Below, piece by piece: positions 4,941 through 62,850 of a stretch of 64,000 bases of DNA. This stretch comes from Clavelina lepadiformis (Eukaryota > Chordata > Ascidiacea > Aplousobranchia > Clavelinidae), in contig NC_135246.1 of assembly GCF_947623445.1 (NCBI RefSeq), positions 19,836,288-19,900,287 on the forward strand, read 5' to 3'. Within the stretch, counting starts at the first letter, position 1; each line of letters opens with the position of its first letter. The translations under genes were made by a program, and so were the position numbers. The notes under the pieces are model-generated. The model was not told the DNA's origin and did no database searches. It worked only from the letters and a program-made list of their open reading frames with translations.

Positions 4941-5275
4941 TTTATGACGTTGTTGTTCTTAAAAACATTCACAATGCAACAAGACACTACTCATGTGACG
5001 AAAGCTTGAAAAATATTCTCGAAAGTTTTTGTGACATGTTTTGAACGACTGCAAGCCAATGGCATCCTTCCCCGCGAAAAGATAACAAAGAAAAAAATGC
5101 GTTTTTCAAAAATTTTTTGTGCGCTTAAAAACGAAAACAGTTTGAGCAAGTTCTTATTTCATTTTAGTTCACGAAGTTATAAAAATATAAAATTGTTCGT
5201 TTCCTTGTTCCGGGAAAATAAAATCATTTTGCGATGGATTTGTTTGACAAAGCACACTCAGGTTCTTATCTGAAG
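2334..5275. other. Spacer between the two peptide genes
   Basis: This is the 3' flank of the first peptide gene and the 5' flank of the second. Most of it is part of the tandem duplication unit. The segment of about 600 bases at 3460-4070 has no counterpart in the second copy. I see no supported coding exon; the open frames here are short and in different phases between the copies. Confidence 0.6.
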
Positions 5276-6084
5276 ATGTATTTGATCATCTTCATGTTAT
5301 TTGCGTTGATCATGTCTTCGAACGGAAGAACGAGAAGTCTCAATTACCGGTGAGTAACTCAGTGTTAAATGTACGACATTTACTCGAAATCATGTTTATT
5401 TTATGGTGTTTAAAAGTGACGATACTTTGCCTTGTAGGTCGATCAAAGCTTGCCGGGGATTGATCAACATCAAATGCAAATACTTGACTCGCTATTGCAG
5501 AACGAGAAGTTTGTTCAAGCGAGATATTGGCAACAAGCAAGGTAAGATTTTACAAATTGCTTTATTTTTGAATAACTGCTATAAGTTACGTATAGGCGAC
5601 TGAAAATTACATGGCATTGAAAACCTTTTAGATTCGTTAACAACACCTAATTGTTATTAAACAAATTAAACTATGATGATCGACAAATCGGCATAAAGAA
5701 ATTTTTTGCTGTTGCACATAATATGAGATTTTGTTACGCAGAAAACTAAGTCACATTAAATCTTTATGATTGACAAACATGTTTGATCAAATGTATTGTA
5801 AAGCTGCCGAAACATGACGAGAAACCTAGATAGACATGCAACTATATTCAGACCATCAGTTAACACTTAATTACTGCGTCCATGCTTGTCCACACGAAGA
5901 AGAATTGACAGTTCAAAAATTTTTCTTATCAGTTCCATTATATCAAATTTGTGTTTCAGAAGAATCGTCAGAAGAATTTTCAGAAGAAGATAAAAACCAC
6001 ACAAAAAGGTCACCAGCTGGCTTTATCATAAAACGCGTGAGATTTCGTGTGACCTGCGATCTTTGCAGGAAATTCTGTTGGTGA
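5276..6084 (+). CDS. Secreted cysteine-rich cationic peptide precursor, copy 2
   Basis: Exons 5276-5349, 5438-5541 and 5960-6084 give a 100-residue protein with the same signal peptide, three-cysteine basic segment, acidic spacer and C-terminal cationic peptide as the gene at 1528-2333. Exon 2 is identical in the two copies. Only three residues differ (Lys to Thr in the GRKRS site just after the signal peptide, Lys to Glu and Arg to His in the acidic spacer), while the 24-residue C-terminal peptide is identical apart from two silent base changes. The first substitution turns a KR site into TR, so N-terminal processing could differ. The AATAAA found downstream of copy 1 reads AAAAAA here, so the 3' end may be formed elsewhere. 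Confidence 0.75.
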
Positions 6085-9000
6085 GACAGCTGCCAAAAGC
6101 AAAACTTCAACAAAATCTACAAAGCTTTTAAACCCGCTTTTTAGACATTTTCCTGCAAATTATCCGGTTAAAAGTTGCTTATTAAAAACAAATGTTTTGC
6201 TAATCACCTGCCTTAACTTGAATTTGAAATATATTAACTTCAACTTAACCGTGATCTTTCCTTTCTTTGTGAATAACTTTGTTGAATCTTTAAAGTGTTA
6301 ATGAAATTTTGCTATTGTCTGTTATTACTTGATCTAATTCTATTCCTGTTGTTGCGAAAGTTAGTTTTGAAACACAAAATTGCATTCGCCATATTATCAA
6401 TTTTTATCTGAACAGTTTACCAAAAAAAATCCAAATAATTTCCAATGACATATTAAAATACTGAAATCGCTATAGCTGTTAAAAATGCTTACGTTTATCT
6501 TGTGAAAATATTTTTAAGTATTTATGTGAAAGTGGTGTTTTATTTGCGAATTTCTTTGCCGCTTTCACGTTTGTACGGTCAGTCAATAAAAAACAATTTG
6601 CTAAATCACTGTTGTAACGGTTTTCTAAAACCTGGGTACAGCTAAAATATTAACACTTGACTTTATGACATCATCAAAGCGAAACGCTTACATAGCGTTT
6701 AGTTAACCACATGACACAAAAAGAACTAAACCACAGCATACTGACAAATAAAAAAGCAATACAAGTCATTGAAAATATGTGAATGTCTGAAGCAATTTTG
6801 TTGCAGCTATTATCACCAAAAACGTTTTAAACAAAACATTTTTTTCATATATTTAAAAATTTCACTTGTATTTTTGGTGTTATCATATTGATAAGTCGCA
6901 TGAGTAACAAAAATATTACAAATGATTTTAAATCTTTTTTTACTGTGAATTTAAGCAACAAATACGCCATTTGTTTTTCACTCTGTAAATTAGGCGCGTA
7001 AACCAAAGCCGGTTTCTGAAATAAAAACACTGGTTGCTTATTCCGGTCAATCTCATGCGCTATTGAGTTATTAGGAAGAATAAAACGGTAACCTTTTTCA
7101 ATTTGTCAAGTTCAATGTGGTTTGCTTGTGTGTGATGTGTTAGCATAAAAAGCTATGGTGGCAACATATGCAATATATAAGCTCGGGTCTACAATTTCGA
7201 AACTCCAAGTAACTGACTTTGAGTAACTGATTTCACGCTAGATCAAATCTTACGTACCATGCTGTGAAAAAAATATCTTGTTGTAAGGAACATTACACAA
7301 TGCACCAACCATGATGACCACGTTCGTTTAAAAATATGAAATGCAAAGTAACACAGGACTGATAACTATTCAAAGGCCAGAGGTGAATAGTCGGTACTTT
7401 AAAAGTACCGCCGGTACCGGTACCGGTAAGATCGGTTCCCATCTACCCATGACACGGGAAATCAGACAATTTCCGCTATTGTGCGTGCGTTGTAAGCGTG
7501 AAATTTATTGTGTGGAAACTCACATTCGTGCATTGAATTGTGAAATTTACCATATTATTTTGTAATTTACAAATGTCCGTAGTGGAAAATGTGGCACCTT
7601 CGCGCATTAGATTCAACAACTTGTCAAACTTTTTATCTTTAATGTAAATATTTATTTTCGTTGCTGTATTACTTTGTGTGAAGTATTACACATCAAACAC
7701 ATCTGTCATAATGACCGCTTTCACCGGCGGCTATTGTTGCAATAAGAGAGAGAGGACGATTGATGGTTGATAATTTGTTCTGCTTCTGCTAGGATGGTGT
7801 GAGTTCTCATTCCTCAAATTGCGTGACTAATGCTGTTAGTTGCTTAATTCTGTCTCTGCCTATTACTAAATGATAAAGTTCGAAATTTTATTTATTATCA
7901 GATACAAAGGCTTTCACCTTCGGGCAAAGCTTCCTGAATGTTATATTGCGCGGTAGTAACAAGTGAAAGAGTACATGGTAAAAAAGTGAGATTGCAAATA
8001 TTACATCGGTATTTCAATGTGGCACACCATTTCAAGGGAGGTAATTTATCTGAACGTAATTAAGGAGAATTTAAGCTTATTAATTAAGGAGAACAACTTG
8101 TGACTCGTGACGTAACCGTCACACAACTTAGCGAAGGAGCAAAAAAAAACACAAAAAAACAAAGTGTGTAAAAATATTTAAAAATGAACAAATGTCACTA
8201 TCTTCTGCAAAATTGGTGTAATAATGTTGCCTAGGATAATCATGACGACAAAGTTGTTTGAAAAATTTTTTCATCGTAAAGTTATTAATAAGATATTCGT
8301 TTTTTATCTCATCACACAAATATCCACGTGACATCCACATCGCTTTCATAGAGCAGCTTGTTATTGTCTTATAATAGTTTAAGTTGATGAGAGCTTGCTC
8401 GTGGGTCACAGTGACGTTATTCAGAGCGACAAGCGGATCACAGAAGTAGAAAGGTTATTATCACAGTAGTAAAAACACCATATTTATTTACCTTCGCTGT
8501 TTTTGTTGAACGAAAACTAAACCATCAGAGATTTGAAACAAATGGATTTGATCCTGGCAAAAAGTCTTATATTAACAAATGACTCAGTTGTAACTGTTTC
8601 CATGTCAGAGCTTATGAATTGTTTCATATCAAACGGTTCAAGGCCGACTTAAGGAAGTGCGGGGCCCAACGTAAAAATTCATGACGGCCACCATCGCTGA
8701 TTATATGTTGGTTCCTTGTTACCGTGTCTGTTGGTTTAAACTTCTGCTTTTTTTTATTTGTGCCGATGTTAAATGCGTAAAATTACATCACAAATTGCAC
8801 ATTTTTAGTAATACTGCGTCATAATGACCACAAAATATTAGGTTTTGTTAATTGCAGCATCCAATCTAACTTGTATACGCACAGTGACCAGTGGCAACTC
8901 AACAAAATAAAATAAACGAAAAACTTTTAAAGTAGTTTTCCAAAAAAACTCCTGTGTTAACTGAGGACGTTTTAATCGAAATTTTGCGTAACAAAGCTGC

Positions 9001-27100: not shown

Positions 27101-30100
27101 TGTCTCTTATAATTATCATCGATAAATGCAGTATTATGGTGCAACAATCACGACAACCACCTGGTCGGCAGGTGCAGTTGCAGTGATGACGTCATCGAAC
27201 GCATCATCAAGGATAAATTCTCCGACAGAAGAAAGTTCCGGAGTGTAGATCTCAGGGGCGGAAGGTGAGAGTGATCCGATCTGATCTTTAGCTTCTTCTG
27301 CAGGCGCACTTGCTTCCACTGACTCCTCCAAGGACTCTGTTCATATGGCATGTGTTGAACATTGTGATGTAGCAATGTATACAGTGGCATAAGAATATAA
27401 AAGAGCCACAACACAATTAAAGCACATAATTTAAACTTTTGAAAATAAAACTCTTCTCACTCCTTAGGCTACTCAATTTTTCCTACACTTTCATAAAAAC
27501 TTATAATAAAGTTGATTTACTTACACAATTCCAAACACCTAATTACTTTATTTATGTTGCTTACGAGATATTGATACTCATTTCAAATTATTGTGTGAAG
27601 CACAAGACCTACCTTGCCCAGAATAAGCCAGGACAGCATGGATGCCAGAGTCGGCCTGGTTGGCTGGGTCCTGGTCCTGCTTCGTTGTACAAAGTTTATA
27701 GAAATGGCCAGGTACAACAGGGCTGCACATTCCCTGAAGGTTTGCAGCTTTAGCCGACTCTTCTGTGACATCATCATCGGCTTTCCTGCTCACTTGGGCT
27801 TGGTCTTCATCTTGGACTCCATTCCAATCACTTTCTGTGTCTGAATAATCGAAGTCAGCAAGTTGTCAAATTCATGAAACATGAAGAACTATAACAACTT
27901 CAATGCAGCTTATATATAGTTTATGATTCCAGTAGCTGCTGCAAGGATTTACAGCCGTCCCCTGCAAATTGCAATTCATATTTAAACATAGTTGAAAAGA
28001 TTAGAACAAGTGTGTTACAGACTCAAAAGATCACTTTCTCGGAATTTCTCGAATGTACAATCACTCCGGTCTTGTAGCTAGAGCAAGTCAGTACTTGCTT
28101 AACTATGCAGGCCATATTTAACGTGTCATATATAACTTAATAAGCTATAACAGGGTGGTCCAAGACTGCGAACATGAAGGGCCACATTAGGGTCTGAGAA
28201 AAACTTCACGGGCCGCATAGTGAGAAATGATAACGCGTTGCTGAAAGTAGAAACGTTGTTAACTACTGTTCGCAGGCTATGAACATTAACAAATCTTGTC
28301 GCTTACAAAATACAGTTGTATGAATGAAATGAAATGAATGAAAGGAAAGGACTGAGTTTGCTGTTCTGATCGACCTAATGTTTTGCTGCACGCCTAACTC
28401 ACTTTTTAATCTCTGCTTGCGACTCTGCGTTTTTGCTTTTGCATATGGTGTCGATCTCTGCTTTAAATTCAGTGGTCGACAGACGTAAGCAGGCATCCAG
28501 GGTTTCATCAGCCATTCTGTTCCGTGTGTCGCTTTTTAATCGCTTCATAATGGAGAAAGTGCTTTCACATATGTATGTGCTACCAAACATGGAGCATATC
28601 TTCAGTGCGAAGTCGTTTAATCGTGGAAACTGTTCGTTGCTTAAAAGCCTCCAAAAGGCGTCGTAACGCTCATTCTTACGTGAAAGAAGAAAAGGGTCTG
28701 ACTGCAATTCACATAGTTCTTGCTGAACGTAAGATGGTTGGGATTCTATAACTATTTCCATTGGATTGTTGAAAAGCTCCATTTGTGCTTTCAGCAAATC
28801 AAAGTCAGCGAATCTGTCGTTAAACTCATCGATGATGTCACCAATTTTGTTAGAAAATGCAGAAAAATCGATACTTTTTCTTTCACCAAGTACTTCACTG
28901 CATGCAGGAAAGTGGGTAGCATCATTCCTTTGCAAAGAAGCCTTAAATAGCACAAGTTTCTTGCGAAAACCTTCAATGTGTCCAACCAATTGAGAAATAT
29001 TTTGTTTCTTACCTTGCAGTTTCATGTTTAGGATATTGAAGTGATTACTAATGTCTGTCAAGAACGCCAACGAACCAATGAACTTGTCATCACTCAACTG
29101 AATCTGGTATGTCTCGGTCGTCCCTTCTATCTCATTCTGGAGAAAATTTAGTATTTCTTTTCGCAAAGAAAAGAAATGTTTCAATGTTTTGCCTGCACTT
29201 AACCATCGAATTTTTGAGAATAGTGGAACATCTTCATATTCTGCACCCACATCTTTTAAGAACTGGATGAATTTTCTATGTCTCTGGGCTCTGTTTCCCC
29301 CTTTGATGATGTTGACTATATTCGTCACACTAAGCATAACATCACTCATCTGCAAAACTTTGGCACATAGTGCTTCTTGGTGAATGATACAATGCAATGT
29401 TGGGCAGTTCACTCCATGATCTTTTAGAATGCCAACTAGTCCTCTCTTTCGTCCTGTCATTGCCCTGGCACCATCTGTTACAACACATGCACACTTCTCA
29501 AATCCTCCATAAGCATCAACGACAGACGCAAGGCTGTTATATATGTCGATACCTTTTGTAGTTCCACGAAGTGGAGATATCTTGAGTAGTTCTTCAAATA
29601 CAGTAAAGTTTTTATCAATAGTGCGAATGAAAACCAAAAGCTGGGAAACGTCACTGATGTCAGTACTTTCATCCAAGGCTAAAGAGAAGTACTTGCATTG
29701 TTGAACAACGTCTTTCAATTGCACAGTCACGTTTTCGCTCAATTCTGCCACTCTTCTTGCAACGGTTTGATGAGATAAAGAAACGTTTTCAAATTTTTTG
29801 GCTATTTTTTTATCTCCAAAGGAAAGGGCCATCTTAATCGCACACTCTTTTACAATCTCCCCGTCTCGAAAAGCTTTTCCATGTTTTGCGAGCGTTAGAG
29901 CAACTTCGTATGAAGCTTTAAGGTCTGCAGTTGAATCGGGTTTGGAAAAACCAATAATCATTTTTTTTTGCTTGGAATAATTGCCCTTTAACTCTTTCAA
30001 AATTGCTTCCCTAGAAGTTCCATGGTATTGGCCATATTTTTTCTCATGCATGGTGCTGTAATGTCGCTTTAAATTAAACTCTTTAGGCACTGAAATAACT

Positions 30101-31009
30101 TGCAAGCAAACCAGACACTGTGGTTTACCATTGCTATTGGCAAAAAAATACCTTTCCTCCCAAGTAGAATTGAACTCTCTGTTTTCCTCTGACACTTTTC
30201 TTTTGACACTCATGCTTTTAGTAAACTTTTCCCCTTGACTAAATAAACGAGTTGCAGCTAATTTACAACCAAATTCGAGAGTGTACTCTGCGCTAGCAAC
30301 AAAAGCAAAATATCAACGCACGTTTGTGTCGTCACAAACCGACATTGTTCCCTCATAGTTACCTATTGACCCGATTATGCACGACTTATTTAGGGTTGTG
30401 GCGAATGTAATGTATTTATAAAGCGTAGGTGTATTTTTAAACCTTGGATTTAGCACTGATAATTCCGGCATCCACAAAGTGTTCGCGGGCCGCACAAAAG
30501 CTTCACGCGGGCCGCATGCGGCCCGCGTGCCAGGGTTTGGACCACCCTGAGCTATAATGCCAGGCAGTGAATGCATTCTGGCATATATGATACATTCATT
30601 TAAGCATCTCTCAATGGCTGACTAATAGAACCAGCGTGAGCACCTCCTTCCACATGAGTCATGGCTTGATCAGATGTTTCCTGGTTTGCCGGAGCTTCTT
30701 CCACACGAGCGGGTGCATTAGAAGATCCGAGGATTTTTGATGCAGTATCTGCAACGTCATCCTCAATTTTGGGCTGAAAAAATTATCAAATCTTTTGTGA
30801 TTTTCTTCGGTATGCTAATGATGACTGAAGCAATTCTAGCAAAGTTAATTGTGTAGCAAAATACGTATTCAAATAAAACGTATCTAGGGCCTAGAACGCT
30901 TAAAACACACATATATACAAACATATTCCACATAGTGAGAAACATCTTTTATTCTTACCTTAACCTTCTTCTTACTCTTTGGTTTCTTTGGTCTAACAGC
31001 TTGCTCCAT
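9118..31009 (-). CDS. EPG5: EPG5, ectopic P-granules autophagy tether
   Basis: EPG5 is a very large Rab7 effector that tethers autophagosomes to late endosomes and lysosomes; loss in humans causes Vici syndrome. Exon 1 (30959-31009) encodes MEQAVRPKKPKSKKK, like the human start MAEAVKPQ followed by a basic stretch. Further exons include about 30641-30774 (end uncertain), 27611-27842, 27161-27336, 26786-26902 (ending in an IYPSL motif like human LYPEL), 25917-26057 (PFTQDQL and LLLNYYQ, matching human PFTKEQL and LLLNYSR), 25697-25807 and 25321-25552 (HRYEVV, matching HRYQRV). Dozens of exons follow; the last, 9118-9312, ends LRHIMLQS. The exon before it ends at 9453 and joins it in phase. Later exons such as those near 11630-12200 and 13040-13630 are clearly coding but were not individually resolved. 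A hAT transposon sits in the intron between 27842 and about 30641. Confidence 0.9.
18575..18645. other. Cluster of TTAATTA-type motifs in an EPG5 intron
   Basis: A run of overlapping TTAATTA and AATTAATT cores occupies an intron. It resembles a homeodomain-binding cluster, but low sequence complexity explains it equally well. Confidence 0.3.
28151..30549 (-). mobile_element. Apparently intact hAT DNA transposon (Charlie-like)
   Basis: The element is 2,399 bases long. It begins CAGGGTGGTCCAA (28151-28163) and ends with the exact reverse complement (30537-30549), giving 13-base terminal inverted repeats. It is flanked by perfect 8-base target-site duplications AGCTATAA (28143-28150 and 30550-30557), the hallmark length for hAT. 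GGGCCGCAT motifs recur just inside both ends, as in other hAT elements. It encodes an uninterrupted transposase on the minus strand and lies in an EPG5 intron in the same orientation as the host gene. The intact frame and perfect duplications suggest a recent insertion. Because it is intronic, EPG5 coding sequence is not disrupted. Confidence 0.96.
28399..30213 (-). CDS. hAT transposase, BED-finger type
   Basis: A single-exon protein of 604 residues that would cut and paste the surrounding element. It starts with a BED-type zinc finger (C33, C36, H51, H56). The RNase H-like core follows: the first catalytic aspartate is probably in LALDESTD, the second in CVVTDGARAM, and the catalytic glutamate in the C-terminal hATC region is probably in TYICESTFS, followed by MKRLKSDTRNRM. 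No stop or frameshift interrupts it, so it could be functional. It resembles the GTF2IRD2/ZBED5/FAM200-type transposase branch (Charlie-like). The assignment to hAT is very secure; the subfamily is inferred from overall resemblance. Confidence 0.96.
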   Translation of the reverse strand: MSVKRKVSEENREFNSTWEERYFFANSNGKPQCLVCLQVISVPKEFNLKRHYSTMHEKKYGQYHGTSREAILKELKGNYSKQKKMIIGFSKPDSTADLKASYEVALTLAKHGKAFRDGEIVKECAIKMALSFGDKKIAKKFENVSLSHQTVARRVAELSENVTVQLKDVVQQCKYFSLALDESTDISDVSQLLVFIRTIDKNFTVFEELLKISPLRGTTKGIDIYNSLASVVDAYGGFEKCACVVTDGARAMTGRKRGLVGILKDHGVNCPTLHCIIHQEALCAKVLQMSDVMLSVTNIVNIIKGGNRAQRHRKFIQFLKDVGAEYEDVPLFSKIRWLSAGKTLKHFFSLRKEILNFLQNEIEGTTETYQIQLSDDKFIGSLAFLTDISNHFNILNMKLQGKKQNISQLVGHIEGFRKKLVLFKASLQRNDATHFPACSEVLGERKSIDFSAFSNKIGDIIDEFNDRFADFDLLKAQMELFNNPMEIVIESQPSYVQQELCELQSDPFLLSRKNERYDAFWRLLSNEQFPRLNDFALKICSMFGSTYICESTFSIMKRLKSDTRNRMADETLDACLRLSTTEFKAEIDTICKSKNAESQAEIKK

Positions 31010-38772: not shown

Positions 38773-41700
38773 TTAGTTCTCTTCAGGAAGGCGGACAGGG
38801 ATATCATTTCTCGTTATAACCACACCGGACAGAATCTTCTCAGCGATTTGAGCTGCAAGCGGATCCGCCATTATTGTTGCCACGGCAACAACCACGTCAT
38901 TTTTGAGGTAATAAGCAGCAAATTTTCTTTCGTCCAGACTACCGGAAATTATTACGTCATTAAAACCTGCGCCATATCCTGTGTATCGAATGCTAGACCC
39001 AAATTGGACAGTCCAGAAGAAGGGGACAGACTTTATTGGTCTGCCGGAATGGTTCGTCGAAATCGCGGCGTGATACGGTCTCTTTGTCCGACGTAACGAC
39101 TCAGCAATGTCCATGGCTGCGATACGTCCGTGCGTGTGTGCCATTTGCCAATGTTGGACGTTAACTAATTCGCCGTCTTAAAAACAAGAGGAGTAGAAAA
39201 TAATAAATATTGTTCTGCTGTAGGTGTACACTAATGAGTTTATGGCGCGGTATATAATGTATAATATTATGTATAATGCATAATAAGCAAAATCAGGGAT
39301 GTTTTAACTTATAACGCAACATAATACGAATACAACACTTCAACAAACTTGACATAGGAGAGATAGAAAGCATTTCTTTACTTTAACTGCGTCACGTCAG
39401 CTCGCCCCATATAACATGAAAATAGCGAACGTATTTAATACAGCTCCAGTACACAAAACGACTGAATAGAGTTTACCTCTCCACGAAAAGGGAAATAGGG
39501 TGACGTCACCCAGAGCATAGACATGAGGAATCTTGGTCTGCATTCTGCCATCTACCGGAATGAACCCGCGCTCGTTCATACGAATCTCCGAACCCCTCAG
39601 GAATGACGTAGCTGGGGTGACACCTGCGCATTATTACGCAATAATATAGAAATTGTTTCGCAAAAAGTTATTTTGTTGTTTCTGGCAGAGTATCAATAAT
39701 CTCACATAACGTCAAACTGGTTAAGTCATCAGAGAAATGTCGGTTGAGAAATGTCCGCTTAACTCACCAATCCCAACAACAACCACTTCCGCTTCGATCT
39801 TTGTACCGTCTGATAGCTCCACCTCGCGGACATATCCAGTGTCACCATTGTCTCCGCTAAATAGACCTGTAACGCCCACTAGCGGATGAAATTTCACCCC
39901 TGCTTTCTCTTCGTGGATCTGCTGGATCACGTGACCGACCAGTTTCCCCAGAGATGACTCAAACGGAACCTGGCGTGAGAAAAATAAGTTTTACTTAAAC
40001 TTGGAATTTAGGCGTCTGACGCATGAACGTGAACACGAACGCATCTGACGCATAAACAAGAAGAATTCATTTCTTGTGATTGACGATTATAAACATCGCT
40101 TGAAGAGTTTTTGGTTAATTCAACAACATCTTCGACTGATTAAAGAAGCAGTAAAAGTTTATGAAATAAAATTAATAGTTTTACCGAAGACTTTTTTCCA
40201 CAAACGACGGCGATGGATGCAGAAATCTTCTTTGCTCCGAGGAAGGAGGCGACTTCCATCCCGATGAAGGAAGACCCAACAATGACAACTTTCTTGTCTG
40301 GAAAATAATTCAATCTTTCACAGGATGAAGATTATTTATTATTACAGTTGTATTATGATCTGTATCTGCGTTTAATATGATAAAGTCAAATGACACAAAA
40401 TATTGTGCGAAAGTGTTGTTTCAGACGGGGAAAGCACCACCGCCATTTGAAGTAGCCTTCAGTTATACCAAAAATGTAAAAGTTTCCAAGAATTTAAAAC
40501 GAAATAATATTCACAAAATTTACCGCGATAAAGTAATCTTTTACCTTTGCTGGCTTCGGCAATTGCGTTCGCGTCATCAGGTGTTCTTAAAACGAAGACA
40601 TTTTTCAAATTCCACCCAGGGATGGGTTCAAGGGTTCTGGGTTCACCTCCCGTCGCAATCACCAGGTCGTCATATTTCAACTGCTTGGAGGCTGTCCCAG
40701 GAATGGACTTCGACATTTTGACGCTCTTCGCGACAACGTCCACTTCGAGCACCTCCTGTGACGTAATAATTTATTTTGTAAGTTTAGTTTTCCTCGTTGT
40801 AAGCCATTGATTGTGTACAGCTGTATTTGCATTAACAAAGTCAATGGGGGATCATTTGGTCTGTGCATTAAGTGCAGCTTTCTTGATGTCTATGGTAGAG
40901 GTTAATCGGTGACAACTCATGCAACTGAATGCATCAGTTACGTCACAATGGTTAAGAGTAAAAGACAAAAGCTGAGTCAACAAAGTCTTTTTTGGAATCT
41001 TTTCAGTTCACAAATTCAATTGCCAAGGCATGGGAATGTATGTTGACAGTTTTGACAAAACATTATTAAGCTTCATCTAAACTTTAAAATTACGTGAAGT
41101 CCAACATTGTCACATACCACGTCATTGCGCAGTTCTATCCCAATCTTTTCATAATAATCCTGATCCGGTCTTAGATAAGCTGAAGATGGTGAGACATCTA
41201 GCGCTTTGCTTAGCTTTGGCCTATCGTACGGAGGGTGGCGTTCTTTGCTCAGTAGAATAACTCGACCGGTGAAGCCTTCTTTGCGCAGGGTCTCTGCGCA
41301 GGTTAAGGAGGATGGGCCTCCGCCTATTATGACGACATTGTGGTCTTCAGGATCTAGAAAAAAGTTTTACTGTGACAAAAATTTATCAATAAACGTAAAT
41401 CCAATATGTCACCTGGCAACGTGAAAGTTCTCAAACAGCATATACAGCATAGTATACAAAGTAAAAGCATACGATGTTCGAAGAGTGCCTATGTTCCGAA
41501 CTTGGAGTATTTAGGAGATGTTTGAGAGTTGAGATAAATGAGAGAATATTAATATTATCTATTTGTCTGGATCGCGACCAAACCCACAGAGACAATGACG
41601 AAGCAAAACGAACCTTCTTTTCTTCTTACCGTCATTTGCCGACGTCATGCACGATTTTTCGAGCAAGTCATTCCTCTTATTCTCAATCAAGTGTCGCTTT

Positions 41701-42204
41701 TTTGCACGAACTATGACGTCATCGTCTTGCACGGTGACCTGCGCGGGCACGATGGCTATATTACAGCGTAATGACGTCACAATCAACACTAGAAAGCATT
41801 CGAATGATTTTACCTGAAACAAGTGAAGACTATCAAGTCCGGGGAAGTCCTCAATGTCCCCGGTCTGGGTGTTGAAGCAGGCCCCATGCCAGGGGCACCT
41901 CACCTTATTGTTTGAAAGAACCCCCTTTATAAGAGGGGCGCCGTAGTGGGTGCATTTGTGCCCCATCGCGGTGAATTCACCGTTTCTGTGTCTGGGAATT
42001 CGACTTTGAATGTTAGCTGCTGTATTTGCAACTAAATATCAGCAACCAATCGGCTAGTGACACGTCATACCTGACTAGAAGACATTTTCCATCGCCACCT
42101 AACGTCACTTCCTTCATTTCCTCGTCATGTCCGCTTTTGAAATCTTGAACTTTGCACACAATTGATTCAATGAACTCGTCGTTATCTCCAGCCTTGGATT
42201 CCAT
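38773..42204 (-). CDS. AIFM3: AIFM3-like Rieske/FAD-dependent oxidoreductase
   Basis: AIFM3 (AIF-like) couples an N-terminal Rieske [2Fe-2S] domain to a pyridine nucleotide-disulfide reductase fold and is associated with mitochondria. Nine exons join in phase: 42071-42204, 41814-41991, 41630-41738, 41118-41353, 40545-40755, 40185-40297, 39768-39969, 39477-39623 and 38773-39176, giving 577 residues. Rieske ligands are C58, H60, C77 and H80 (CTHYG and CPWHG). The FAD-binding loop is GGGPSS at 151-156, the second nucleotide-binding loop VGSSFIGME at about 296-304, and YALGDV with HWQMAHTHGR matches the FAD-contacting C-terminal signature. The start chosen gives MESKAGD; human AIFM3 has an extra N-terminal segment (MGGCFSK) not seen here, so an upstream exon cannot be excluded. 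Confidence 0.96.
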
Positions 42205-45577: not shown

Positions 45578-48500
45578 AGATATCATAATCGGAACTATTG
45601 TGATGTCACAGATGGAACACAGACGACGGTCAGCAACGACATCTTCCATTTTGATCTGTATTGGATAATTCCTCTCTCATGCTTCTTCGTTTTGTTCGCC
45701 GTCTTCTTCTTTCTGCTCTCTATGAGGGAGCGCACAAGGTAGCATTATTGCGTCACAAAACTTTTACGAATGCCGCCACTCAGCAACAAGTTACCACTAA
45801 ATCACAATTTAGTTAAATTCTTTTAAAATTATTTCATGGAAATATTTGAAACAAAACCAGATATAACGCGGTGATTTGCGATTCTAGAATGAATGCACAT
45901 CGCGGAATGACGAAACTAATGGAAGAGAATCTTGCCATTATCAAAGGTTTCAGTCTTTTACCAATAAAGTTTAGTTTCTTTTCTATAATGACGACACAAT
46001 GGAACACGACGTCAGTGATATTATTTTTAGAGTTACGTAGCAAGCAGCATGATCCAAAGAACGGGACAGTCCCTGAAAACTACGGACGTCACGCGATGAG
46101 AGCGAGCCAGCTGAGGCAGGAGCTGAGAATTCTTCGCGATGAAGACAATCGGGGTTTTCTGGAACAGTTTACTCAGGAGCTCCCTCTAGCGTTGTCCAAC
46201 TTGTCAATGAGCAGTAACGCGGCGAAGAAGGAGGAGAATCTTTCCAAGAACAGGTTCAAGAACGTCATCCCTTGTAAGTAAATTTCAACTTTGACCCGCT
46301 CTATTGCCATGTTTACTCTACCCTCTGTTACGTCATTTGTGCCATTGTGTCGTGTTTGATACTTAATTGAGTATTTGTTTTAGACGACAAGACCCGCGTT
46401 AAACTCACACCGATTGATGACGACCCGAACTCAGACTACATAAACGCCAACTACATCGATGTGAGAATAACTTTATAGCGTTGCTAAGGTGTAGTGCGCG
46501 TGTGGGGGTTTTATTCTAACAGCTGTTACGTATGTGGGCAGAGTTATGACGTCCCAAAGAAGTACATCGCGACCCAAGGACCGAAAGCGAACACCATCAG
46601 CGATTTTTGGCGGATGGTCTGGCAGAGCGAGTGCGGGGTGATTGTGATGTTGGCAAACGTCATAGAGAATGGCAAGGTATAAAGTGCTGCTGTGCGATAA
46701 GAACATCTACTAACATCGTTATATGCCTCCTTCTATAATCCGGTGGAATTGTCGCAGTGTGTCGAATATGTTGATAAGTAGAAGAGTAAACTGCAGGAAT
46801 TTTGTGAAGTTATTTTAGAGAATGTGACTTTGACAGAGAAAGTGTGAGAAATACTGGCCTGAACCAAACCAACCAATCAACTACAACCAAATCAGAGTTT
46901 CACTGCTCAGCGAGGCAAAGTACGATGATTACGTCGTCAGGGGATTCACCCTTTCCAAGTTGGAAGAGGTAAACCGGAAGTGATATCATAAGCATTTACA
47001 GAAATATGCGGAAGCAGAATCATATTGCAACGTTATGATGACGTCACAACTTTGTTTATGGTTCGTATTTTTATCTATGAAATTGTGAGGTGGTGCAGAG
47101 AAATTCAGACTAACTAACTCCGGATTAAACTACGTCGAACTTACGTCACAAGAGCTCTTGGGATACTTCACAAATGGGTTATTGTATGGAATAAGCTCCA
47201 AAATGTAGAGTTTACAAATTAAAGATAACGCAGCTGGTAATGCGTCCTGTGCTGAAATGTACAGCAGCCAGCCTGGTCTGCTTAATTCGAGGTTAATTTC
47301 AGTCGACTTTCTGCGCACCGCTCCTTAACTTCACTCTGTAACGGTTTGAATCAAATTATACGTTTATCTTTCCATTTGTTCGCTAACAATCGAAATCAAT
47401 TTCAGGAGACGCGTCAGGTGGTTCAGCTCCAGTATCTGACTTGGCCTGACCACGGAGTACCCGCCCTGACCACCGGGATAATTCGCTTCAACGAAAGAGC
47501 ACGAAAATGTTTTAAAAAATCGCGATTACCTGGTCCCATCGTCGTCCACTGCAGGTGACGTTTCGATGACCTTTAACCTTTTCTTCGTTTGCGAATCCCA
47601 TGACATGCTTTTTCATTAAAGCGCTGGGGTTGGACGGACTGGAACCTTCATCGCATTCAATGTGCTAATGAGGGAACTGAACTACAAAGCCAGCGTCAAC
47701 GTCTATGAAACCGTTCTAAGTCTCAGGAAGCAGAGAATAGCGATGGTTCAAACAGCGGTAAATGATTCAATCTTGTAACTACTTGTTTGGCAGAGTTGAA
47801 CTTTCAAAGGTACCTAGTTACCTGGTTAAGGTTTTGTGAAAGTTTTTAAATTGACAAAGCTTTTTCTGGTATGTTTTTGTGGAAAGCCAAGAAAAAACTT
47901 TGTTGAAATAATGTCAATGTAATTATGAGTAAATTTTCAACCAAGAAATACAATTCATTAATATTAGAGTCACTTTGATGCATATTTGGATATCTTTATT
48001 CTAACAGCGCATGTGTTGACCCGACTTTAGCTGTTTTTTCATCTTTCGGTCCGCTTTTGCAGGATGGCTGCAAGCAATATGGACTCGCTCGTACGATTTT
48101 ATTCTGTTTAAATTTGACATATTTCCTTCACAGAGGCAATACATCTTCCTACATTATTTGATCACAGAAACACACGAACTTGGAAACAGCGATTATGACG
48201 TCAAAGATCTTATCACTAAGATGAAAACCTTAGAAAAGTATGGTCCAAAAAATTATCAATTTATTTTTACAAATTTGAATAATTAGGCGCTGTTACTAAA
48301 CTTGCACAAATGCCAACCTTGAACCCTGACAAATTCTCTTCTTTATGACGTCATTTCCTGTACAGGTTGAGCGGTGGCGGCAAGTCAGGATATGACGATG
48401 AATTCCAGAAATTGTGCAACCTTGACCCGGTAGAGGGCGCTAAGGAGATTGCAAATGAACCGGAAAATGCGACAAAGATTCCCTTATCAGGGGTTTTCCC

Positions 48501-51500: not shown

Positions 51501-54500
51501 ATGGAGGAACTGGTTCAAGCAGATGAAGAATATGTTCACACCAAATTACGAGCCATTATAAAAAATGCAGATTTTCTTTTGGTAAGTTTTGCTGAAGCCA
51601 AGGATATTCTGGGAGTAAAGATGAATCAGGTATAAATTTGTAAGTTTTACCAAGTTTTTTGGTTATGACATAACTATTGAATATATTTTTATCAATTTAT
51701 GCAAACATTAACAAAAATGGATTTCGATGCCAACCACGCAATTAAGGCCTCGTTTGAATAAATGTTTAAAAGCTTTGTTAATCCATCTATGAAGAACATG
51801 TCAAACGTTTAACTGAATGATTAAACTGAACTAAATGTTGATTAAACTCAGGATTTTGTCGATGAAGAGGAACTAAGGGTTATTGAGGAGGAGAAATTTT
51901 GGAGTCTAATGGATTGGATTCAATGCAAATTGGAAGCGAGAAGGGACCATTTCGATGACTTGTTTCGGCTTCTTAACCTGAACTTTTTGTCGAAGAAGTT
52001 CTTAAATGAAGTTGTTTACAGCGAAGTAAGATTATTTGATTCTAAACTAACTTTGTTTGTAAAACTGATCTGAATTTTTAGCGAAATCAACATTGGTTTG
52101 TGTTTATGGACAAACATTCACTTTGTTAGGAGTTATTCTGGCTGCTTGGACTGCCGCATTATTGTCATTTTTTGCCGTAGCCTATAATTTCGAGTGCACA
52201 GTAAACACAACGCTCTAAATCTGCTGGAGATGTAGCTGAAGACTAGCTTTGTTTACATTTTGAAGCCAGTCAAACGCTAAACCCTTCAATAAGAATCTCA
52301 GTAGTTACTAGTTAATATTAGTATTATTATTATTATCATTATTATTAGTAGTAGTAGCATAATTAGAAGAAATCGTTATATACCAGTCAGCAACAAAAGG
52401 AAGTGATAAATTTCCCAAATTCAGATCTGACGAAATGAGGTCGTACAACTGAAGGCAACAAACACGTATAATGGGCGCCTCTAGCTTAATTCAGTTTTCT
52501 AAATTCACTGATCTTTAAAAAATCACGTGATGAATTGCACAAAACCTTGTTATGCTTGGCAAATTTCTCAGTTAGTTTACAGTTAGAAACGTGTTTATGT
52601 GGAGTTAATCTCAATCACATGAAATCGTTTCTCGGGCTGATGCTCAGCAGAAGATGTCTGATCATGTGCTATTGCTACGTCACCAGCTGTTTGTCTAGAA
52701 ACATAATTTATTTTAAAAATCAAAGGTCTTTTGAAAATATGTTCCTGTAGTTGGATTTATGTATTTCCTTCAAAGTTTGTAAAATTGCAAAGTTACTGCA
52801 ATTTAGCAACTATCGTTAACTATTTCATGAGATTAAACATGTTAGTAGCTTTACTGATCGCTGATCCGGCGTCCTGTGTGGCGTGAGATACGTGTTGCGC
52901 CAAGTGAGTCAAAGTTGCATCAATGCTTGGTCATGCATGAAACCAGTGTTATTGTTGACGTCTTATCTAACATTTCCCGGCAAACCGAGCTGGAAAAATC
53001 GTCATGAATCGTCATGAATCGTCATGAATCGTTATGAAAATTATAACATGCTCGCAGTGACCAAAATAACCGCTAAAGATTTAAACCAAAACACCAACTG
53101 ATGTTAATTTTAGAAAAAGTGATTAAGTTTAAAAATCAGCCCAATAACTCGTGTAATTTGCCCCGGTTATCTCCAAGGCGGGCTCAGGGTGAATGTAGGG
53201 TTAGAAATAAACCCAAAGTCAAGTTTCTAGGAAATAGGATTTGAGGCATTGCGTCCCTGTGCGCGTTTGATAGAAGCGTGTTGCAGTATATTGAGTCAAC
53301 AGCATAGAAATAACGAATTTATTTTGTAGAGTCTGGTCAAGGAATCGATGACTTGTGTGCATTTGATTCTCACTAATTTACTTGGCCGGATACCGGAAGA
53401 ATGTCTTCACATAAGGGGAGAATCTCAGTTTTCAAGTTCGTGTCAACTTTCAAAGTTGTTTTTGTACTAAATTACGCTGCAATATCAAAGATTTAAAGAA
53501 GAATGGACAGTGCAGTCATTGTTGGTATATGACACGTATTGTTTTTATACAGCCCGGTCTGCTAGCGAAGTGAATAGCCCACAAATCGGTGACAGCTCAA
53601 AGGCGTTAAAGGAAATTGAACAGAAACCGAGCAAGTTGGACCAAGGACATGCGGAGACTCCAGAAGAAACACAAGTTTGTTTTTTAGTTTTTGGTCCATC
53701 AATTTCTTCACGATTTCTATTAAGTTTGTAATATCATGACAGCGTTGGTAGATACCATCATGTTATTTGTCAGGCCCACAAGAATTCTTATTTTCAGCGG
53801 AATTTTGACAAAACTATTTGTCCATCATGTCTCCTAGAAATTTTTCTTGATAACATTCGTCGAAAAGAAACACTTCACAACGTAGTCAAATGGCTGAAAT
53901 TTTACAATTTCTCGAGCGCACTTTTTGACCTTAGGCTCAACATCACAAGATCTGTGTTTTGAGTAACAATTTGTTTTCTTCACCAGTATGTCTTAGATGA
54001 AGCAAGGTTGATATTGAACAAACTAACTCCAGACACATTCAGCGAACTGATGGAGGAATTTCAGCAACTGCCAATATACTCTGAGCTGGGATTGAGAAGA
54101 ATAATAGATCTCATCTTTGAAAAGGTATCTTGTCGAAGTTAAGCTGCATCAGATTTCATGAAATAAACAACTGGGCATTTCTGGTCTGATTGAAAATACT
54201 TGGTATCGTGGAAGTTAAAGCTTTTTTGTTAATGTTTTGCGATATATATATGATATTTATATATATTTGTTGCCTGTAGTTGTATTATTCTTAGCAAATA
54301 ATTAGCAATAAGTTATAGGTGAAACAAAACACCAGAGAATTTTACACAGGAAATACTTCTAGACAAATTTTCTATAGAGTAGCCTAAAAGTCATCAGTAG
54401 AATTATAATACTGAGTTTCATCCAGTATTTGCTTCGTATCTTTTTACAAATAAATTCCACTTTGTTCAGATAACAAATAAAAAATTGAATTTATAAATCA

Positions 54501-55967
54501 ACAATCAAGAATTTGGATTAATGTTTTTTTACATAAAAAGTTACGTACAGCAATTTTCATCTATAAGCGCAAACACACATTGCTGTAACTCTGGTTTTTT
54601 CAAATATATGATGAAATTTCATTTCATACCATATCATCTTTCGATATATTGATATGACGCGTTCGCAAATGGTTGCATTAACTTTGCGGTAAAAGATTAA
54701 GATGACGAATATTTTTAAAAGCATTAAATGATGACTTAAAATCAAACCAACATGTTATCAAAGTCAAAGTGTTTTGTCTTCACCATTAAGCACAAAAAGA
54801 AAGATTAACAAAAACTGAGGACCACCTTTCTCCAACCAGGTCAATGATGATCCAGATAACAGCAAAATGTACGCAAATGTATGCCGCATGATGGCGCCAT
54901 ATACAATTACAATCCCATCCACTCCAAACCAATCTCAGCAACAGACGACAACTTTGGAATTTCACAAGTTTTTGCTGACGAGATGCGAACACGAGTTTGA
55001 GAAGCATCGTCAGGATGATGACGTTCTCGTCAAGCTTCGACAGAAACTAAAAGATGCGACAACAGTTGTAAGTGAACGTCTTTGAATTATTTCAATAATA
55101 AACCTCATTTTATTGGTTCAACCAACGTAGACAGCGAAGGAAGAAATTGCGGAGGAGACGAGACTCGCCGAAGCCAAAGTACGAAAGGAAATGTTTGGAA
55201 ACATTAAATTCATCGGCGAACTGTACATGCAGAAAATGTTAACGGATGCGATCATGCACGACTGTGGAATGTCCTTGTTCAAAGGCAACGATAACGACTT
55301 CCTGGAGTGTCTCTGCGCGTTGTTGACAATAATAGGCCAAGATCTTGAACTTACTAAAGACGAGGTATCTGACTGTTAACCATGAGCAGGTTTTTTTTTA
55401 AGGTTTGGTTTGGGTGACCGCTAAGTAGTTTTAAGAGACCGCAAGTGTTTCATTTAAATACCAAAAAATAGTAGTAGTAAGTTGCAAGTCCAAATTTTGG
55501 GAAACCGCTGGAGAAATTTGGGGGACCGTTTCGGTCCCCCAAATCACCTTAAAAAAAACACTGACCATGAGCTACAGAAATTTTGCTATTTCTTAACCTT
55601 ACGTAGAGTTATTATTGGCACAAAATTCGTGCTTGTGATTTCATTGAATTCTCTCAGAGTGGTAAAACTTTTGTTGTCCTGTACGCAGCATCATATGAGT
55701 GAGTTCTTTGGTCTTATTGACAAGGTGATAGAAGAAAAAAGCGCATCTCCAACCATCTGTTCTGTGCTGGAAAATCTCATGGAATTAAGAAAGGTAACTT
55801 GATACATATTAAAACGACGATATTAGTGGCTGACTGGTATAATTGCTAAAAAGTTGACCACGGCAAAATGATTTCCGTGGTGTCGTCCTTGCGAAGATAA
55901 CTTTATTACATTTCCTTATTTGTAGAATGAATGGGTTCCAAAACCAGCCCAAACTCAGAGTTTATAA
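51501..55967 (+). CDS. BACK-MIF4G fusion protein, upstream copy (no eIF4E motif)
   Basis: Nine phase-compatible exons (51501-51629, 51852-52025, 53330-53435, 53553-53674, 53987-54124, 54840-55067, 55131-55364, 55689-55793, 55926-55967) give 425 residues. Residues 1 to about 136 match the BACK domain of BTB-Kelch proteins (for example [10 protein letters not shown] and SLVKESMTC), lacking the BTB part. A short Glu/Lys-rich linker follows (to 177). Residues 178-425 match the MIF4G domain of eIF4[65 protein letters not shown] and the terminal NEWVPKP. The protein stops where MIF4G ends, so MA3 and W2 domains of eIF4G are absent. No YxxxxLL motif is present. An in-frame TAA precedes the chosen Met. 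The donor of exon 3 is weak. MIF4G binds eIF4A/RNA in known proteins; the role here is inferred. AATAAA lies at 56069-56074. Confidence 0.9.
52999..53038 (+). repeat. Ten-base tandem repeat, about four units
   Basis: The unit ATCGTCATGA is repeated head to tail about four times, the last unit with one change. It lies in the large second intron of the upstream BACK-MIF4G gene. Confidence 0.85.
55516..55544. other. Perfect 13-bp hairpin in an intron
   Basis: ATTTGGGGGACCG (55516-55528) pairs perfectly with its reverse complement (55532-55544) around a three-base loop TTT. It lies in the intron between the last two large MIF4G exons of the upstream fusion gene. A chance hairpin of this GC content would be rare in such AT-rich sequence; it may be a small repeat end or a structured intron element. 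Confidence 0.8.
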
Positions 55968-58677: not shown

Positions 58678-61600
58678 ATGTTTGAGATTCGATCTTATTT
58701 AAGTGGCTGCAACGTAGGTTTTCATACTCAAGCAGCTGAAACTTTTATTTCGGAAAATTTTCGAACATTTTTAAAGAGTCCAGATTTTCTTAAGTTACTT
58801 GTTGATGACGTCAAGGCTATGTTGAAGTTCAAATCCAAACAGGTACAGTTTGCACATTTTACGAAATCTGTATTAGGTGACTTACACATTGTTTTAATGG
58901 TTGAATATTAGCACATGAAAAAGTGGGCACAAACAAAAGTCATGCTGTGTAACTTTGTTAAAATGTCGATGAGAAGAGAGAGCAAACCGATAACGCTTGA
59001 TTAAGACCGAAAATTTTTGATTTACTTTCAGGATTCCATCGACGAGGACAAATACAGATTTGTAATTGAGTGGACAAAATACAACATCGATTATAGAAGA
59101 AAACATTTCAGTGATTTGTTTCATCTCATTCAACTCAATTCTTTATCAAAGAAATTCTTAAATGAAGTTGTTCGCGACGAAGTGAGACTGGTTGGGTCTA
59201 AGCCTTTCAACGTCCTTACCATTTAATTTCTGAAATACTTTGCGCTACCACTGTATTGTCAGTATTGTCAGTATCCAGACAACAACAGATGTAAACATAA
59301 TGAATTTATTTTGCAGGAGTTGGTTAAACAATCGGCAGATTGTATGGCTTTGCTTGTCACTGCTTTAATCAACCGGATACCAGAAAGCATCAACATGGAA
59401 CATCAACGCAAGTTTTTATGTTTGTGTCATAATGAACCTGTTCCGTCTTTATCGAAATTTGATTGTCTTTTATCGTCGTGCAGGTGAACCCGATGAAGTG
59501 CTTGTTATCGGTAGAAAAAATCATCTAGAAAGTGTTGTCAAATTCAACACCAAGACAAAACAGTGGAGTGGCATGCCGGTATAACAGTTGTTTAAATTAT
59601 TTTGTCATTTTGAACAAATAATAAGTTTTCAAAAATCTTAGTTTGGTAATTAAAAGTAAGACAATAACGTCTTTCCAAACAAATGTTTTGTTAACATTTA
59701 TACGTTATTTATCCGTTTTAAGGTTATATATGTCTTATCATTCTGTTTCAGCCTTCATTCAATTTGAACATTTAACTTAAACTGGTTCGATGTTTTTTGA
59801 GGTATTTTAAAGTGTATATTCTTTACAGTCTATGCAAAATGGCTTGCGATGTTGGGATGATTCTGACTCACACTGCAGACATTTTCTCCGAACAGAAGAT
59901 CAATCTGCCATCGAGAATTTTCTGGAGCAACGTGTAAGTTGTTTAGTAGTAGTAGTTACCTGCCAGTCAGTTTTAAAAAAATCGAAAATTTTTATTTACT
60001 GTGGTTTTCATAAACATTTTTAACCAGTTTGGATTCACCTGTCGGTGTCCTTATACAGAAATTTTAAGTTACGGGATAGAAACATGATGCCGCTGTAATC
60101 GAAGTGTTCTTATACACCAAGTCACAATAGGCGAAGTCATTTCGAGACTTTGCAATGGTGTCATTTTACACGTAATATTACTATCGTCACAATCACTAGG
60201 TGGTTTTTACTGTGGTTCTTTGTTTTGTTTAAATTTAACAAAAAAGTGATTTTAAAATTTTAATCCAGAATGTTTCGAATGACATGGAATCGTCAACATC
60301 TGGCGACCAAGTTAAAGATGAGGGAATTTGTTCCGCCTCAGAGCAAGGTTTTATTTTTCCTTTGAATTAGTTCTTAAAGACGCTGTAATAACACTTACTT
60401 AAGCCCTTTAATAATGTCTTTTTTTTATATTACTAATTGTTGTCAGTAACTGTAACTTATTTTCAGCAACTCAGCTGGAAATAGTGTAACAATGGCGATT
60501 ATGTGTCTATTTTAAATACTAATTTTATGATTTTTCTTCTCGTAGAAGTACCTAATGGGAATAAAAAGAGGGTTTATGATCGTGATTTTTTGCTGAGATT
60601 TCGTAACGACGCTTTGTCAAAGGAAAGGCCCGAGAGTCTTCCAGAAGTTGGAGAAATTATCATGGATCTTGTAATATATTTCTTTAGTATAAAGTTGATG
60701 GTTTACGCTAGATATTTATCAACTAACAATTTAGCATATCACTGCTAATGCGTAAATATTCCATGTAGAGAGAACCCCCCAAAAAGCTTGTTTCTTTAAT
60801 CCCTGCTGATGCAGTTTGCTTTTAATTTTGATTTCGATATTTTTTAGGTTCTCTTTTTCTACAAACATTATTTGACATATTATTAATATTTTGTTTGATG
60901 TCACAATATTTGCTTGTTATGTAACAGAGTGATTAATGTTTCCTCAGAGTGTACTGTGGGAAGTCCAGTTGATATTAAACCAAGCGACTTCACAGAAACT
61001 TGGTCCTCTCATGCAAAAGTTTAAAAAATTGCCAATCCATTCTGAGCAGAGATTGCAGGCGGTAGTTGACCTTATTTTTCAAAGAGTAAGTTTTAACAAC
61101 ATTGTGAAAAATCTTTATATCTAGCCAAAACGTTTGTGTTACTCATTATTAAGCAACAATTCTTTTACCAAAGTTACCAATATTACTTTAGTTTACTTCC
61201 ACAGAGCATACTGCTATAAACAGCGTGTTGTTGTTGTTGTATTACAACTCTCGTCTCGAACAAACGTTTCGTCATTTTTGCAACTACACACTTTTTTCTT
61301 TGGTCTAAAAATTGCTTCACTCTAAGGTACTTGATAAACCAAAATTTGCTGAGGTGTACGCAAATGTATGCCACATGATGTCGCAAATCCTAACTACAAC
61401 ACCATCACCGTCAGCTTCAGATAAATATCAAGAGCAAACAAGAAAGATGGAATTTCGAAAACTCTTGCTGATGAGATGCCAGCGAAAGTTTGAGAAGAAT
61501 CGTCAGAAGGAAGGAATTCTGAACAAACTTCGACAGAAATTAGAAAACGCTACCTCAGTTGTAAGCAAACAAGTTTAAATATTTCATAAATAAATGAATC

Positions 61601-62850
61601 GATGATGAATATATATTTTTCTTTTTCCGCGTTTGAACCAAAACAGGGAACGAAACAAAAACGCAAATCTCAATTAGAGGTCGTTGAAGCCAAAATACGA
61701 AAGGAAATGTTGGGAAACATTAAATTCATCGGCGAACTCTTCAAGCTGAGAATGTTAGCGGAATCCATCATGCACATGTGTATAATGGACTTGTTCAAAA
61801 GCAGAAATAACGAGTCACTTGAGTGTCTTTGCGCGTTGTTGACAACAATAGGCGAAGATCTTGACCATATCAAAGAAAAAGTACGTTAAGTGCGACCGAC
61901 AATTATTAACATTATCTAGACTACATTGTTTTCTTGGGTCACGTTGGTTGTTTTTTACCCTCATGAAATGTTTTAATGGATAAATTGAACATAACTGTTT
62001 TCCAGCAACGAATGGATCAATACTTTCACCAACTAGACAAGGTGATAGGAGAAAGAAAGACATCTTTTCGCGTACGTCACTTGCTGCGGGATGTTGTTAA
62101 CCTTAGAAAGGTAACATTGTAGGTGTTTTTCACAAATTATTATCAAGGACCAACTATTATATTCATCATGACTTCGTCGCAACACCTGTAAAAGTTAACT
62201 AAATATTTACATTTCATTTATTTTTGTATTCTACGTTGTTGATTTTAGAATCAATGGATTCCGAGGCCAGTACAAGCTCAAGGTCCTGAAACAATCGAAC
62301 TGGTCAATGTCGATGTCAAAGAGCGGTTTGAATTGAAAGCTGCAGTTACAGCATCTGCTGCTGCCGGCGACACTGGTGGAAAATCCCAGGTAGGGAAAAA
62401 CTGACTAAGAATGAAGCGAATGCTTCATGCAAAATTGTAATTAAAGCTTCAAACATAACTTTGATAATTCTAGTACATATGACTCTAGTATATATGACTC
62501 TAGTATATATGACTCTAGTACATATGACTCTAGTATATCAACCGTCTTTAAGGCGAACGATATAATTAATACCCAACTAAGTGTTTTGCTTGACTTGACG
62601 TTTTCTCAACACTACCCGAGTTAACCGAAAATCATTTTTATAGAATTCGGAAGCATTTTTTCCCACCAAAACACACACAGATACGTTGGAAGCAAAATCT
62701 AAATCATTGTTCACATTCAACCCACGTCATTCCTCCTTCACCAAGCTACTTGACAGGAGGAAATTCTACAATGATATATGCGAGTGGATTGACAACAGTT
62801 CTTATTATTCTTCTTATCAACCCGAAACTAAATCGCTGCTACGTTTATAA
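58678..62850 (+). CDS. BACK-Kelch-MIF4G fusion protein with eIF4E-binding motif
   Basis: Thirteen exons join in phase: 58678-58842, 59032-59181, 59317-59407, 59484-59578, 59829-59933, 60269-60347, 60546-60670, 60948-61085, 61327-61560, 61647-61880, 62006-62110, 62249-62389, 62644-62850; 622 residues. Residues 1-135 are a BACK domain ([25 protein letters not shown]). Residues 136-170 look like one Kelch strand set ([26 protein letters not shown]). After an acidic linker, YDRDFLL at 239-245 matches the canonical eIF4E-binding motif of eIF4G (human YDREFLL), followed by PESLPEV. MIF4G follows ([67 protein letters not shown]), then QGPETIE as in eIF4G, and a tail of about 100 residues without homology. 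The intron after 59407 uses a GC donor. An AG 12 bases before the ATG could be a trans-splice site. AATAAA lies at 63108-63113. Confidence 0.92.
62470..62538 (+). repeat. Fifteen-base tandem repeat, about four to five units
   Basis: The unit ATGACTCTAGTATAT repeats head to tail with one-base variants (TATAT/TACAT). It sits in the last intron of the downstream BACK-MIF4G gene. Confidence 0.85.

Follow-up and report, generated by a model that had tools for sequence, protein, structure and literature searches.

Does a chordate genome encode a protein in which the BACK domain of a BTB-BACK-Kelch (KLHL-like) protein is joined to the core of the translation-initiation scaffold eIF4G? The question is raised by a locus within a 64-kb stretch of Clavelina lepadiformis DNA (NC_135246.1, positions 19,836,288 to 19,900,287, forward strand), hereafter the window, which belongs to the contig that we call C7; all window coordinates are positions in this stretch. 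An earlier note on this DNA had proposed that exons between 58678 and 62850 read in phase from BACK, through one Kelch-like strand, to the eIF4E-binding motif YDRDFLL and a MIF4G domain. We consider it likely that the locus as a whole is best explained as a young chimeric gene, one of a tandem pair, with a product that would act as a lineage-specific mini-scaffold. Beyond that note, we found that there is a sister copy at 51501-55967, that exon 5 originates far towards the C-terminal end of eIF4G and that the BTB part of the KLHL-like source is missing.

Exon chain and domains of the two copies

The spliced model of the gene comprises 13 exons on the plus strand (58678-62850) and reads from an ATG to a stop codon over 1869 nt, stop included, giving a 622-aa product without any internal stop. 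All junctions are in compatible phase, and 11 of the 12 introns are of the GT-AG type, the one after exon 3 being GC-AG. The proposed in-phase chain is thus borne out. A Pfam search of the spliced product placed both BACK (44.9 bits, cut-off 20.9) and MIF4G (130.5 bits, cut-off 30.8) above their cut-offs, the MIF4G match being nearly complete (profile positions 4-202 of 203). Among solved structures, BACK matched KLHL3 (E 6e-8) and KLHL11 (E 2e-6), in agreement with its assignment in the earlier note, and the MIF4G half matched human eIF4G1 (E 4e-69) and eIF4GII (E 8e-67); weaker matches of this second half were eIF4G2 (4iul, E 2.5e-36) and PAIP1.

BACK is encoded by exon 1 (58678-58842), which derives from a KLHL-like exon and carries the ATG and the first part of the domain, by exon 2 (59032-59181) with the second part, and by exon 3 (59317-59407), which ends the domain and precedes the GC-AG intron. 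Exon 4 (59484-59578) encodes the first Kelch-like strand. The strand claimed from the letters holds as homology, with 52-65% amino acid identity to exon 4 of the nearest KLHL-like loci (L019-L024), and does not hold as a Pfam match, the single Kelch_1 stretch reaching 15.2 bits (cut-off 20.1). Exons 5 (59829-59933) and 6 (60269-60347) are of eIF4G type and precede exon 7 (60546-60670), in which the motif YDRDFLL (YxxxxL-phi) is intact and aligns to human eIF4G1 and to the eIF4E-binding (4E) exon of the canonical eIF4G gene of this genome; the eIF_4EBP profile over this exon scored 21.3-22.6 bits, just below its cut-off of 24. MIF4G is spread over exons 8 (60948-61085), 9 (61327-61560), 10 (61647-61880) and 11 (62006-62110). 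A post-MIF4G segment (exon 12, 62249-62389) and the final exon 13 (62644-62850) complete the frame, with an AATAAA downstream at 63108.

Upstream on the same strand lies the sister copy (51501-55967), whose nine exons are open and in phase and encode 425 aa with Pfam matches to BACK (32.2 bits) and MIF4G (117.9 bits). Its BACK domain begins with the ATG in exon C1 (51501-51629), continues in C2 (51852-52025) and ends in C3 (53330-53435). Exon C4 (53553-53674) is weakly similar to the part of eIF4G that directly precedes MIF4G, and C5 (53987-54124), C6 (54840-55067), C7 (55131-55364) and C8 (55689-55793) encode the four parts of MIF4G, followed by a short tail with the stop codon in C9 (55926-55967). 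No eIF4E-binding exon was found in the sister copy.

Sources of the two halves and probable timing of their joining

The canonical eIF4G gene lies at C6:3.049-3.069 Mb (C6:3049000-3069000) on the minus strand, and its C-terminal exons match the Pfam domains MA3 (47.7 bits) and W2 (59.2 bits). Exons 5-13 of the chimeric candidate match exons of this gene in a changed order. Exon 5 equals the canonical exon C6:3054471-3054367(-) in length (105 nt) and phase, with 16 of 34 residues identical and none of 1000 shuffles reaching the score. Its counterpart in the canonical gene is flanked by MA3 and W2. In the chimeric candidate exon 5 precedes the 4E motif, which puts the eIF4G exons out of order. 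Exon 6 corresponds to part of the canonical exon just before the 4E exon (9/26 residues identical, score reached by 0/1000 shuffles), and exon 7 shares 17 of 36 residues with the 4E exon itself. Exon 12 is 58% identical to canonical eIF4G over 50 residues. Exon 13 corresponds to the canonical exon next after the counterpart of exon 5, which precedes the Pfam W2 region (25/53 residues identical, again 0/1000 shuffles), and then diverges up to the stop; like exon 8, it begins at the same point as its canonical counterpart.

Neither MA3 nor W2 gave a Pfam match in the spliced product, and a tblastn search of the window and the 20 kb downstream yielded no exon for MA3 or the W2 core, the MA3 part of this result being weak as the MA3 queries had no positive among the control loci. 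Two peptides from the N-terminal region of canonical eIF4G, which we take to be the PABP-binding region, had no match in the window; one of them, PAM, did detect a relative in L011. This locus and L010 lie at C6:2733000-2750000, where partial eIF4G copies are found: two near-identical MIF4G segments (97% amino acid identity) and a longer partial eIF4G duplicate.

Exons 1-4 match the BTB-BACK-Kelch family, which is expanded on chromosome 5. A genome search with the BACK-Kelch stretch returned well over 100 matches as a lower bound, many of them at C5:22.5-24.3 Mb, and among the matches listed the nearest donors were L019-L024, on C5 and C2, with 76-80% amino acid identity to exon 2 over 50 residues. 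One spliced family member, L019 (C5:24.32-24.33 Mb), has BTB (79.3 bits), BACK (61.7 bits) and four Kelch_1 stretches in Pfam. The expansion spans C5:22.47-24.33 Mb, with further members at C7:2.28-2.45 Mb, C4:15.34-15.35 Mb and C2:24.07 Mb, some of them carrying in-frame stops.

A BTB-BACK query that detects BTB in L026 (E 4e-39) gave no BTB exon in the window or in the 20 kb beyond it. No further Kelch exons were found in the window either, which leaves one strand and no propeller. Compared with six of six aligned donor loci, the chimeric candidate lacks 1 nt and the sister copy 2 nt, in both cases at one shared position shortly before the start codon. As a consequence, neither product can be a continuation of the old KLHL frame.

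Both halves pair the two copies with each other. In the MIF4G tree, which like the MIF4G codon models covers exons 8-11 only, they group with an ultrafast bootstrap (UFBoot) of 99, and all six tested alternatives that separate them were excluded by the approximately unbiased (AU) test (p 0.014 or less; 5000 replicates, where the program advises 10000). The BACK tree used 25 of the 28 fetched KLHL-like loci, with donor in-frame stops set to gaps and with L043, L045 and L046 left out for having fewer than three usable exons; it pairs the copies with a UFBoot of 90, the best among 49 placements of the sister. Synonymous divergence (dS) between the copies is alike in the two halves, with point estimates of 0.68 for BACK (115 codons) and 0.66 for MIF4G (234 codons). 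This agreement, together with the pairing in both trees, suggests that BACK and MIF4G were joined before the tandem duplication, and a single unit at that time would be the simplest account of the sequences. Two independent fusions are not favoured for the same reasons, and the BACK tree alone would leave room for them. Since dS, again as point estimates, is 0.66 between the BACK exons of the chimeric candidate and L019 and 1.14 between its MIF4G and canonical eIF4G, the BACK part would have been acquired close to the time of the duplication and later than the copying of eIF4G.

The series of events that we propose is as follows. A stretch of a BTB-BACK-Kelch gene, holding BACK and the first Kelch-like exon, would have landed upstream of rearranged exons from an eIF4G duplicate; splicing across phase-0 introns would then have brought exons of both sources into one frame. 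The joined unit would then have been duplicated in tandem, with each copy subsequently losing different exons.

One mRNA, two genes or debris

Do the two halves share one transcript? We think it probable that a single mRNA carries both BACK and MIF4G. This is supported indirectly, in that the sister copy has the same join, both halves are similarly diverged, the BACK exons of the chimeric candidate run into a splice donor without a stop codon of their own, and the MIF4G half of the sister has no suitable ATG (none in frame in C4, the first one lying inside MIF4G). Neither AATAAA nor ATTAAA occurs between 59649 and 60560 or, in the sister, between 53206 and 54162.

The main rival of the chimeric gene is a trans-spliced two-gene operon. 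An operon-like pair would consist of a small BACK protein, with 168 codons when exon 4 continues into the intron up to a TAA, and a mini-eIF4G mRNA that receives a spliced leader at the acceptor of exon 5 or 6, the two having been duplicated together and never spliced into one mRNA. The genome does have spliced-leader genes: a tandem array at C6:12139467-12225578 and beyond (L049) repeats ATTCTATTTGAATAAG followed by GTAAGT every 745 bp, with a TATA box and AGCTTTTG downstream in three of three copies read, and matches to the leader with up to 1 mismatch number 857 forward and 705 reverse genome-wide (control, 0). The leader exon is identical to that of Ciona, as the leader is given in a passage of PMC7986045. 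According to the portion of PMC2760879 consulted, about 20% of Ciona genes lie in operons, which are often mispredicted as one fused gene. An ATG lies 3 nt past the exon 5 acceptor, exon 6 holds an in-frame ATG, and ATTAAA occurs at 59649. Yet the genes of Ciona operons abut directly (same portion of PMC2760879), and no AATAAA or ATTAAA, the two signals scanned, is found within 150 nt before the acceptor of exon 5 (59829) or exon 6 (60269). The missing start codon in the sister also speaks against an operon, and a BACK fragment with neither BTB nor propeller would be an odd stand-alone gene. We regard the operon as unlikely, if clearly worth keeping in mind.

A less probable reading still is that the locus is decaying debris, that is, tandem KLHL-like and eIF4G fragments with little or no transcription and no useful protein. 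It would be in keeping with the partial eIF4G copies at C6:2.733-2.750 Mb and with the fast evolution of both C7 copies relative to the canonical gene (omega 0.50-0.75 versus a background of 0.20). The reading frames argue otherwise: 622 and 425 codons are free of stops and frameshifts at about 0.2-0.55 synonymous divergence per branch. In neutral simulations, which modelled substitutions only, no indels, and frames that had been picked for being open, 3.4 to 13.2 stops were expected per stretch. Under the same settings, the probability of no stop was 0.028 for BACK of the chimeric candidate and 0.0075 for that of the sister, 0.002 for sister exons C5-C9, and 0/4000 for the eIF4G exons of the candidate. 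As the exons match genes elsewhere in the genome and neutral evolution would rarely leave such frames open, the in-frame domain chain appears to be more than chance.

In codon models, BACK has an omega of 0.33 along the whole lineage leading to the chimeric candidate (2dlnL 16.9 against omega = 1; 11 of the 25 donors in the tree included), and MIF4G on the branch of the candidate one of 0.50 (2dlnL 4.85). Compared exon by exon with canonical eIF4G, the 4E exon 7 is constrained (0.19, 2dlnL 8.67), which also speaks against debris, exons 5 (0.43, 2dlnL 2.77) and 13 (0.42, 2dlnL 3.02) are suggestive only, and exon 6 is uninformative (1.12, 2dlnL 0.03). Judged by these sequences, both genes look coding but fast-evolving.

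Several points weigh against a young chimeric gene in a tandem pair. After the duplication, BACK of the chimeric candidate is compatible with no constraint (omega 0.65, 2dlnL 0.62), as a decaying locus would also predict, and constraint on the sister is unsupported in both BACK (0.72, 2dlnL 0.78) and MIF4G (0.75, 2dlnL 1.04). The BACK pairing is indecisive: 7 of the 48 other placements remain, FastTree support on amino acids is 0.635, and both branches are long. Homology to eIF4G is weak for exon 6 and for sister exon C4, whose score was reached by 1 of 1000 shuffles. One intron is GC-AG, and a splice-site model ranked several eIF4G-type sites poorly, for example placing the acceptors of exon 9 and of sister exons C6 and C7 among ordinary AGs; the basis of this model, 22 donors and 21 acceptors from homologous introns of KLHL-like genes, is too narrow, the model gave no score for the GC donor, and no conclusion is based on its scores. 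The presence of spliced-leader genes makes co-transcribed separate genes possible. Finally, we infer the binding partners discussed below from sequence alone.

Predicted function and relation to known systems

What would the 622-aa product do? YxxxxL-phi motifs bind eIF4E, and the MIF4G domain of eIF4G binds eIF4A. With BACK, the eIF4E-binding motif and MIF4G, and without BTB, the PABP-binding region, MA3 and W2, the product would hold eIF4E through YDRDFLL and eIF4A through MIF4G without recruiting the remaining initiation machinery. As it keeps the motif and MIF4G and lacks MA3 and W2, it would most likely either compete with eIF4G or serve only part of the mRNAs, a prediction that we put forward tentatively and rate at somewhat below even chances. 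The role of BACK would be that of a helical module for protein binding, not that of a cullin-3 adaptor, and the sister copy, without the 4E motif, would bind eIF4A alone. In a more speculative and rather doubtful extension, exon shuffling would have created a new scaffold in which BACK replaces the PABP-binding N-terminus and directs a minimal core of eIF4E and eIF4A towards chosen partners; the sister would keep only the eIF4A-binding core, and the pair would form a lineage-specific switch of cap-dependent translation.

The earlier note had suggested that the protein might tether eIF4E and eIF4A to a degradation complex or compete with eIF4G. The first idea is weakened by our results, and the predicted competitor role fits better. 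If the product were a cullin-3 adaptor without BTB, delivering eIF4E/eIF4A to a ubiquitin ligase, it could draw on a mostly kept BACK domain, in that the 3-box, part of BACK, also touches Cul3 in KLHL3; however, of the KLHL3 surface in contact with Cul3, about 80% belongs to the BTB domain (both from a section of PMC3616122). The frame break and restart fall on the 3-box side of BACK. With BTB not found and the old KLHL frame shifted, a normal cullin-3 adaptor role appears unlikely; we rejected it as the leading interpretation on account of the missing BTB and rate it as highly improbable, well behind debris.

The chimeric gene that we favour resembles several known systems in part. With canonical eIF4G (eIF4G1/eIF4GII) it shares the eIF4E motif, the complete MIF4G domain and exon structure; it differs in having no MA3 or W2, no N-terminal exons found, a changed exon order and an N-terminal BACK. 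The match to eIF4G2 (DAP5/NAT1) reflects another shortened eIF4G paralogue with MIF4G. DAP5 is not known to have an eIF4E motif and retains both MA3 and W2, whereas here the motif is kept, without MA3 and W2. What we take, by eye, to be a DAP5-like locus lies separately at C2:26453700. The likeness to KLHL proteins, nearest L019-L024, consists in a BACK region over four exons; in place of BTB and a propeller there is no BTB, one strand and a fusion to eIF4G exons. We know of no MIF4G-BACK fusion among 4E-T and the 4E-BPs. These proteins share the YxxxxL-phi motif and are able to sequester eIF4E (PMC5291280, in part).

Neither gene fusion by exon shuffling nor either of the two domains is new in itself; literature searches, with protein databases outside their range, found no protein combining BACK and MIF4G. 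Translation factors rank with the most strongly conserved proteins of animals, and if exon shuffling has indeed added a domain to an eIF4G paralogue, the case would be rare and also datable. As the eIF4E motif is present in one copy and missing from the other, the pair would offer a natural comparison of the job of each part, and the locus would illustrate the use of exons from an expanded KLHL family in unrelated genes.

Other features of the window surround the pair. A protein-tyrosine phosphatase exon lies at 47286-47555 (+), with more exons recognized by eye up to 49860, ending upstream of the sister copy. Exons encoding Rieske and pyridine-nucleotide oxidoreductase domains, AIFM3-like by eye, occupy 38776-42038 on the minus strand. 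A transposase-like open frame of 637 aa with a hAT dimerisation region and a zinc finger is found at 28402-30312 (-), and 1202-3455 and 4941-7200 form a 2.3-kb tandem duplication that is 95% identical.

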